Virus record (IMG/VR): IMGVR_UViG_3300035670_000177 | Span: 1 to 64,000 of that record | Source of the DNA: a virus | DNA length: 64,000 nucleotides | Direction: 5' to 3' (one strand) | Shown here: positions 2,975 through 44,118 of the stretch, one piece after another | Layout of the letters: each line of letters opens with the position of its first letter | Numbering within the stretch: the first letter of the stretch is position 1 | Notes under the pieces: generated by a model | Told to the model about the DNA's origin: nothing | Databases searched by the model: none | Seen by the model: the letters and a program-made list of their open reading frames with translations, nothing else | Translations under genes and position numbers: made by a program

Positions 2975-3023
2975 TGAATAAGTGCTCTGCTCACCCTCCA
3001 AACTCGATTAGGCTTTTAGGAGG

Positions 3024-3079
3024 CTAAGAGACTATGTTTTCATAGTTTCACCAGAATCTCACCGGCTCATCAGTCTTAG
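3024..3079 (-). ncRNA. Hammerhead self-cleaving ribozyme, stem I open
   Basis: Read on the minus strand from 3079: stem I strand CTAAGA, core CTGATGA (3073-3067), stem II GCCGG/CTGGT with loop TGAGATT, core GAAA (3049-3046), stem III CTATG-AAAA-CATAG, then U (3031), C17 (3030), and the other stem I strand TCTTAG, which pairs fully with CTAAGA. All catalytic-core positions match the hammerhead consensus. The only deviation is a G-U rather than G-C pair at the base of stem II. Predicted cleavage is between 3030 and 3029. The RNA would be cut about 55 bases upstream of the first tRNA. Confidence 0.88.
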
Positions 3080-3513
3080 TAATAAGTGCCTAACCTGTGT
3101 ACCTACTTGCAGAGCGTTGGTACAGTACGACTATAAATTCATTGCACCCTAAAGTCATAAAAGCAGGAGTTAAGGAATTACCTACATTTCTGTATTCTTT
3201 AGGACGACTTTATCAGAGTTGACTTGTTTTAATAACTTATCGGAGGCCAAAATAAGCTTTCAAACAGAGGGTCTTCACAGATATCTCATTCTGATTTTTA
3301 AAATTGCCTTTCGGCCAACAAAGTCCCTAGCGTCTGCTAGGCTACGGTGTAATTAGTGTAAGCCTACACCATCTCTCACCCTGTCTTTTCGTAGAACTAC
3401 TAAACCGTATCCGCCCTCGTAGTCGTAGCTCGGATTTAGCATCCATGTTGGAAGGACTGGTCTACTCGCCAACGTATTACGCCGCGTATGAACGTAATAT
3501 CCGTATTGCTCTT
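3080..3513. other. Non-coding stretch, structured, upstream of the hammerhead
   Basis: No convincing ORF. Visible pairings include CCTAAAG with CTTTAGG enclosing about 45 bases (near 3148-3206), CCTAGC-GTCT-GCTAGG (near 3327-3342) and GGTGTA with TACACC (near 3345-3370). On the minus strand GCC-GAAA-GGC is followed by a T/A-rich run near 3290-3310, which could act as a weak terminator. No tRNA with a T arm is present. Confidence 0.4.
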
Positions 3514-3726
3514 TTAACAAGTCACTTGGACTTTAGACCAATCAAAATCACTAAGCTTTGGAATACTAGGAGTTACAGTAATTTGATTTCGATCAGGAGT
3601 CTTCTTATCAAACACAAGCTTCAAATGATCTTTAATAATCTGCCATTGCTTTTCTGAGATAGTGTCAGTGTTAGCAATTTCTACGAAGCCTTGGAGCCAG
3701 TATGTGAAATCCGTTGCATTATTCAT
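3514..3726 (-). CDS. Small conserved phage protein, 70 aa
   Basis: The N-terminus NATDFTYWLQGFVEI and the following EKQWQIIKDHLKLVF recall a short family common in tailed phages; its function is unknown to me. ATG at 3724-3726 with AGAGG upstream. The start overlaps the stop of the HNH gene (ATGA), so the two are translationally coupled. No membrane segment. Confidence 0.75.
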   Translation of the reverse strand: MNNATDFTYWLQGFVEIANTDTISEKQWQIIKDHLKLVFDKKTPDRNQITVTPSIPKLSDFDWSKVQVTC

Positions 3727-43735: not shown

Positions 43736-44118
43736 TTACTAAATTTGTAGATATTTTAATGCAACACCAAGAAGAATTGAAAGGATTTTTTGTAAAACAT
43801 CCAGATAATTACAAAGATATTGTAAAGGCTGTTATTAGCTTGATTAGTATGTATAATGATAGTTATGAATCGCCAGACCCTGATTTGATTCATGAGATTG
43901 ATGACGGTGATTATCAAGGAACTTTGGTATATATTATTGCATCAAAAGGCTATCAGCCTGACACATACTGGGCTGTGAAAGTAGGGTATGGTAGTTGCTC
44001 TGGTTGTGATACACTGGAAGCTATTCGTGATTACAGCGATGATGTCCCGGATGAGCAACAGGTTAAAGATTACATGACTTTGTGCCTTCATATTATTCAA
44101 GGCTTGAAGGAAATCTAA
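43732..44118 (+). CDS. Hypothetical protein, 128 aa, GTG start
   Basis: GTG start overlapping the previous stop (GTGA), AAAGGAG upstream. Helical with a central β part. Not recognised. Confidence 0.7.
   Translation: MITKFVDILMQHQEELKGFFVKHPDNYKDIVKAVISLISMYNDSYESPDPDLIHEIDDGDYQGTLVYIIASKGYQPDTYWAVKVGYGSCSGCDTLEAIRDYSDDVPDEQQVKDYMTLCLHIIQGLKEI

Follow-up and report, generated by a model that had tools for sequence, protein, structure and literature searches.

What a hammerhead ribozyme might be doing at the head of a phage tRNA operon is the question raised by the locus described here. Hammerheads are known from phages and prophages, where their functions are largely open (PMC3088659; PMC10085705). 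The DNA analyzed, referred to below as the window, is a stretch of 64,000 nucleotides (positions 1 to 64,000) from a record of 67,211 bases in the IMG/VR virus collection. The DNA polymerase of this record is ~58–59% identical to its counterparts in Pakpunavirus-like Pseudomonas phages, and the record also encodes HNH, endonuclease VII and ribonucleotide reductase, which are ordinary among such phages.

Read directly from the letters, a type I hammerhead core is complete on the minus strand at 3079–3024, with CUGAUGA, GAAA, C17 and three helices; the coordinates, the strand, and the core elements and their order, as given in a preliminary description of this DNA, are borne out by this reading. 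Its parts are listed here in 5′ to 3′ order, all taken from the sequence, stem III also from the fold, and C17 by hammerhead numbering on the sequence.

3074–3079, minus: 5′ strand of stem I, CTAAGA
3067–3073, minus: core CTGATGA (CUGAUGA in RNA), C3 to A9
3050–3066, minus: stem II, formed by GCCGG (3066–3062) and CTGGT (3054–3050), with loop TGAGATT (3061–3055)
3047–3049, minus: core GAA, that is G12, A13 and A14
3031–3046, minus: stem III hairpin, formed by ACTATG (3046–3041) and CATAGT (3036–3031) with loop AAAA, and including A15.1-U16.1
3030, minus: C17, the cleavage nucleotide; predicted cut between 3030 and 3029
3024–3029, minus: 3′ strand of stem I, TCTTAG, with which the predicted 3′ cleavage product begins

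The features that define type I are thus all in place: C3-U4-G5-A6-N7-G8-A9 as CTGATGA (3073–3067) and G12-A13-A14 as GAA (3049–3047); the A15.1-U16.1 pair as A3046-U3031, followed by a non-G residue at H17 (C3030); and three helices of 6, 5 and 6 bp with stem I open. The lengths originally assigned to stems I and II (6 and 5 bp) stand, while stem III, given as 5 bp, has 6 bp when A15.1-U16.1 is counted. The minimum-energy structure of the 56-nt RNA is exactly the hammerhead shape (−11.8 kcal/mol), and the window contains no second type I hammerhead on either strand. The G-U at the base of stem II that had been pointed out before is real in the sequence: it forms pair 10.1-11.1, which is G-C in all 12 sequences of the covariance model described below. 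At this closing pair of stem II, G-C is strongly preferred and not absolutely required, and a G-U next to the core may slow the predicted cleavage. We regard its assignment to the type I hammerheads as nearly certain, and the ribozyme fold itself is of an ordinary, known kind.

Stem I extends further than the preliminary description had it. An 8-bp outer helix with one G-U, GGUUAGGC/GCCUAAUC, pairs 3095–3088 with 3013–3006, and folding with flanks shows that it closes an 8/10-nt internal loop within stem I.

3088–3095, minus: 5′ strand of the outer helix, GGTTAGGC (from sequence, fold and chance estimate)
3080–3087, minus: 5′ side of the stem I internal loop, ACTTATTA (from sequence)
3014–3023, minus: 3′ side of the stem I internal loop, CCTCCTAAAA (from sequence)
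3006–3013, minus: 3′ strand of the outer helix, GCCTAATC, partner of 3088–3095 (from sequence and fold energy)

Hammerhead and outer helix together have an energy of −22.8 kcal/mol as against −24.5 for the minimum-energy structure, which retains the same outer helix; the extended RNA has alternative folds that are nearly equal in energy. A comparable outer helix arises by chance with a frequency of ~0.015 in shuffled flanks and ~0.06 in random window-like sequence. The stem I internal loop and loop II, the putative partners of a loop-loop contact, are both present, the sequence of the latter being recurrent.

Statistical support for the element comes from simulation and from a held-out model. 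In 4,863 simulated windows that share the dinucleotide make-up of the real one, type I motifs with helices of 4/4/4 bp or longer occurred 19 times (~0.004 per window) and those of 5/5/5 bp or longer twice (~0.0004 per window). With a covariance model prepared from type I hammerheads of other viral sequences (12 of them, not including the window copy), the element scored 31.2 bits (E = 2.6e-7, the E-values of this tool being stated as rough) and was the sole match in the whole 67-kb record. The same model scored 26.7 bits on the genome of Pseudomonas phage PaP3 and found no match in the genomes of 17 further cultured phages, the majority of which carry tRNA genes; its background is therefore low. 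The model sequences had been picked by their pairing, so covariation counts on their alignment do not serve as independent evidence.

The Rfam models behave differently. The element belongs to the same clan as RF00163 (Hammerhead_1) and RF00008 (Hammerhead_3) and has the topology of RF00163, but falls below both gathering scores: at gathering level the window gave no hammerhead match, a family search of the virus's own record returned nothing, and at E up to 10 only RF00008 appeared, at 13.5 bits and in a shifted register. Failure to reach threshold had been named beforehand as a result that would count against the element, and formally this is the result obtained; yet the test does not discriminate, since Hammerhead_1, with its cut-off of 34 bits, also under-scores perfect phage hammerheads and gives two of them in another viral contig (L115) no more than 20.8 and 16.7. 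On the other searched contigs that carry perfect hammerheads, Rfam reported none. The Rfam negative is for that reason uninformative about the window copy; more generally, present Rfam thresholds hide textbook phage hammerheads (17–21 bits versus a gathering score of 34).

The genomic setting of the element is a tRNA array on the same strand, on which ARAGORN and Rfam are concordant: tRNA-Met, -Asn, -Arg and -Trp lie at 2974–2654 and tRNA-Thr at 1833–1760, all minus.

3514–3726, minus: small upstream ORF, 70 aa, PHROG 28500, function unknown; the nearest upstream gene with database support
2975–3029, minus: 55-nt leader on the tRNA precursor after the predicted cut (from the cut-to-tRNA distance)
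2900–2974, minus: tRNA-Met(CAU), first in the array (ARAGORN, Rfam)
2814–2890, minus: tRNA-Asn(GUU) (ARAGORN, Rfam)
2733–2807, minus: tRNA-Arg(UCU) (ARAGORN, Rfam)
2654–2729, minus: tRNA-Trp(CCA) (ARAGORN, Rfam)
1760–1833, minus: tRNA-Thr(UGU), set apart from the array by other sequence (ARAGORN, Rfam)

The predicted cut had been placed about 55 bases upstream of the first tRNA, on its strand, and the distance to tRNA-Met (2974) is indeed 55 nt. The window copy is lineage-specific. Six related contigs, recognized through a 130-aa protein and the DNA polymerase, lack it, among them the nearest relatives that share the neighborhood just downstream of the tRNAs (L001–L003); there is therefore no covariation evidence for the window copy. 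In L001 the stretch upstream of tRNA-Met has CTGACGA and GAAAC and was rejected as a hammerhead, stem II being missing. The one 20-bp match sits within a coding region and was dismissed as chance, and a mobile element or repeat was likewise rejected, the element being present as a single copy in the record.

Whether hammerheads recur beside tRNAs was addressed by scanning viral contigs for the pattern CTGATGAG..GAAAC followed by the T-loop motif GTTCRAWTC, in two distance ranges; the antisense control used the identical pattern with the T-loop motif reverse-complemented. The first sense scan yielded 37 stretches, of which 17 contain a true type I hammerhead by the helix rules. Of the 30 stretches from the matched control, none contains a tRNA, and true hammerheads come down to one distinct locus (in two near-identical contigs). 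In the nearer sense scan 7 of 24 stretches contain true type I hammerheads; these counts are those of pattern scans.

In four families the predicted cut falls 7–8 nt before a tRNA or tRNA-like RNA. Two of these distances are 8 nt: to tRNA-Gly in L042 and its near-copy L045, where the hammerhead occupies the gap between tRNA-Asp and tRNA-Gly, and to tRNA-Lys in L050. The other two are 7 nt, to an Rfam-called tRNA in L044 and, in L037, to a tRNA-like RNA whose 7-bp acceptor stem is perfect. Five contigs hold six more cases, in which ribozyme and tRNA are fused and cleavage is predicted right at the mature tRNA 5′ end (tRNA-Tyr in five of the six, tRNA-His in the other).

L115:6478–6760: two tandem tRNA-Tyr with one hammerhead apiece, cut predicted at +1 (offset 0)
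L131:2314–2440: tRNA-Tyr, cut predicted at +1 (offset 0)
L132:4377–4240: tRNA-Tyr, cut predicted at +1 (offset 0)
L109:5908–5777: tRNA-Tyr, cut predicted at +1 (offset 0)
L118:12321–12183: tRNA-His, cut predicted one base ahead of position 1 (offset −1), matching the extra G-1 of tRNA-His

The 5′ strand of the tRNA acceptor doubles in these fused cases as the 3′ strand of stem I, and the precursor therefore has no acceptor stem while the ribozyme is folded. Offsets of 0 (or −1) in six cases and of 7–8 in four are not expected under random placement in an allowed span of roughly 75 nt. In all the fused cases the tRNA has a GUN anticodon, one of the set modified with queuosine in bacteria.

The window element, at 55 nt, lies outside the 0–8 nt arrangement of all nine of these contigs (L037, L042, L044, L050, L109, L115, L118, L131, L132), and its tie to tRNA processing is therefore weaker than theirs; it is at most a distant-leader variant of the tRNA-linked arrangement. 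Its nearest parallel, and the only tRNA-linked case farther out, is the first hammerhead of L131, 111 nt before a tRNA-Met. Loop II of the window element (TGAGATT) is identical to that of the hammerheads of L037, where the element sits inside a tRNA array, and of L006, and two C-to-U changes, which turn G-C into G-U pairs, are all that separates its whole stem-loop II block from the L006 one. In the cultured-phage collection, a nucleotide search with the window DNA and the other tRNA-hammerhead regions, together with the model search of 17 phages, found no tRNA-linked hammerhead, and a near-tRNA pattern scan of prokaryote genomes returned seven stretches, none of them a true hammerhead by the helix rules.

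Other elements were seen in viral contigs. In L038 (7681–7527), L065 (597–747) and L069 (377–224) the sequence ~41 nt past the hammerhead is a tRNA-like RNA (Rfam tRNA, 36–39 bits) whose anticodon loop is shortened; L048 and L055 have a T-loop motif and tRNA-like sequence downstream of theirs; and in L114 (6031–6224) a Y-RNA-like RNA (RF02553 YrlA, 69.7 bits) comes directly after the hammerhead, within a tRNA array. L037 carries inside its tRNA cluster a conserved, unannotated 51-nt element (2329–2379, minus) whose flanks can pair (GTATGCAAA/TTTGCATAC); it occurs also in 32 cultured phage records (Aeromonas, Enterobacter, Serratia, Acinetobacter, Salmonella and Pseudomonas), in several of which it sits among annotated tRNAs. 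Two Pistol ribozymes (Rfam) and at least four type I hammerheads are closely spaced in L051. The whole record of L006 has at least eight type II hammerheads, each just ahead of a gene start, and in L066 (9598–11457) every one of four type I hammerheads sits in the gap from a stop codon to the following ATG, a layout as if polycistronic mRNA were diced between genes.

What is shown directly is the sequence and structure of the element, its held-out model score, its position and its strand, and the fact that the arrangement recurs in other phages. On this basis we consider it likely that the window copy is an active type I hammerhead in the leader of a phage tRNA operon, cleaving in cis to separate the upstream mRNA from the tRNA precursor. 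Minus-strand transcription would proceed from a block of small genes (about 5405 to 3353) to the tRNA array. Its product would fold, stem I taking its extended form (6 bp, internal loop, then 8 bp), and would cleave itself after C17, between 3030 and 3029. The upstream mRNA would be left with a 2′,3′-cyclic phosphate and the tRNA precursor would start with a 5′-OH and the 55-nt leader, which RNase P would then remove at tRNA-Met. The benefit would be a defined, triphosphate-free precursor uncoupled from the mRNA. That the window element cuts a tRNA precursor is supported indirectly, by analogy with independent phages in which cuts are predicted 0–8 nt before tRNAs.

The same cleavage could instead have been selected for the sake of the upstream mRNA, for example to give it a defined cyclic-phosphate 3′ end or to limit read-through, with the tRNAs incidental. 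The distance of 55 nt to tRNA-Met, rather than 0–8 nt, fits this reading, as does the fact that many hammerheads of phages are found between protein genes and away from any tRNA (the eight or more type II elements of L006, the four type I elements of L066); but the window element stands at the boundary of a same-strand tRNA array and shares its loop II with a hammerhead within the tRNA array of another phage (L037), and we consider a role directed at the mRNA unlikely. It would be more improbable that the element is a decaying or very slow relic, perhaps of the loss or move of an adjacent tRNA. Such a history would suit the G-U at 10.1-11.1, where 12 of 12 model sequences have G-C, the absence of a hammerhead from close relatives, and a leader longer than in most tRNA-linked cases; the strictly required core residues, however, are all intact, which counts against decay since decay is expected to damage the core too, and stems II and III are fully paired with the loop II sequence preserved.

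A chance resemblance has to be weighed as well, for the minimal hammerhead is small and many windows were scanned, each expected at random to hold ~0.004 motifs of the 4/4/4-bp class. The helices of the window element are, however, 6/5/6 bp, the outer helix is present, the loop II block matches hammerheads of known type, the held-out E is ~3e-7, and other phages bear the same element at such a location; chance is thus a very remote explanation. Active cleavage in the tRNA operon leader remains the reading that we prefer.

Among known systems, the type I hammerheads of phages and bacteria (Perreault et al., 2011, PMC3088659; e.g. PaP3) share with the window element the core, the open-stem-I topology and the cleavage position. 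Unlike the window element, the PaP3 copy found here (44037–44110, minus) lies far from the PaP3 tRNA genes (1628–1954). Perreault et al. place hammerheads near integrase and prophage genes, and the word tRNA occurs there solely in the title of a reference (PMC3088659). Another comparison is with the tRNA-associated theta ribozymes of gut phages, which are HDV-like, lie at tRNA 3′ ends and have been proposed to act in phage tRNA processing in a paper that makes no mention of hammerheads (Kienbeck et al., 2024, PMC10879173). Both are small self-cleaving ribozymes at phage tRNA genes, cleavage in the window being predicted; theta ribozymes, however, are HDV-like double pseudoknots and cut at the tRNA 3′ end, whereas the window element has a hammerhead core and lies 5′ of the first tRNA. 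Rfam gave no match to an HDV-like ribozyme in the window. A search of the open-access full-text literature turned up no account of hammerheads placed within phage tRNA arrays; to our knowledge the placement is novel, though subscription papers may have described it earlier.

RNase P acts in trans and leaves a 5′-phosphate, whereas a hammerhead acts in cis and leaves a 5′-OH. In the fused cases (L109, L115, L118, L131, L132) the predicted cut is on the same bond that RNase P cuts. We tentatively propose, with somewhat less than even confidence, that the array-embedded hammerheads of some phages are cis-acting stand-ins for RNase P that would make the exact mature 5′ end (+1 of tRNA-Tyr, G-1 of tRNA-His) and yield 5′-OH tRNAs without protein or RNase P, the window element being a distant-leader member that would free a tRNA operon from its mRNA.

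The repeated placement suggests ribozyme-mediated cutting of tRNA precursors in some phages. The fused cases of other contigs lend it interest. Placement at tRNA 5′ ends would give a concrete job to part of the phage and bacterial hammerheads, which are mostly of unknown function, and mirrors that of theta ribozymes at tRNA 3′ ends; it implies that some phage tRNAs could mature without help from RNase P or protein.
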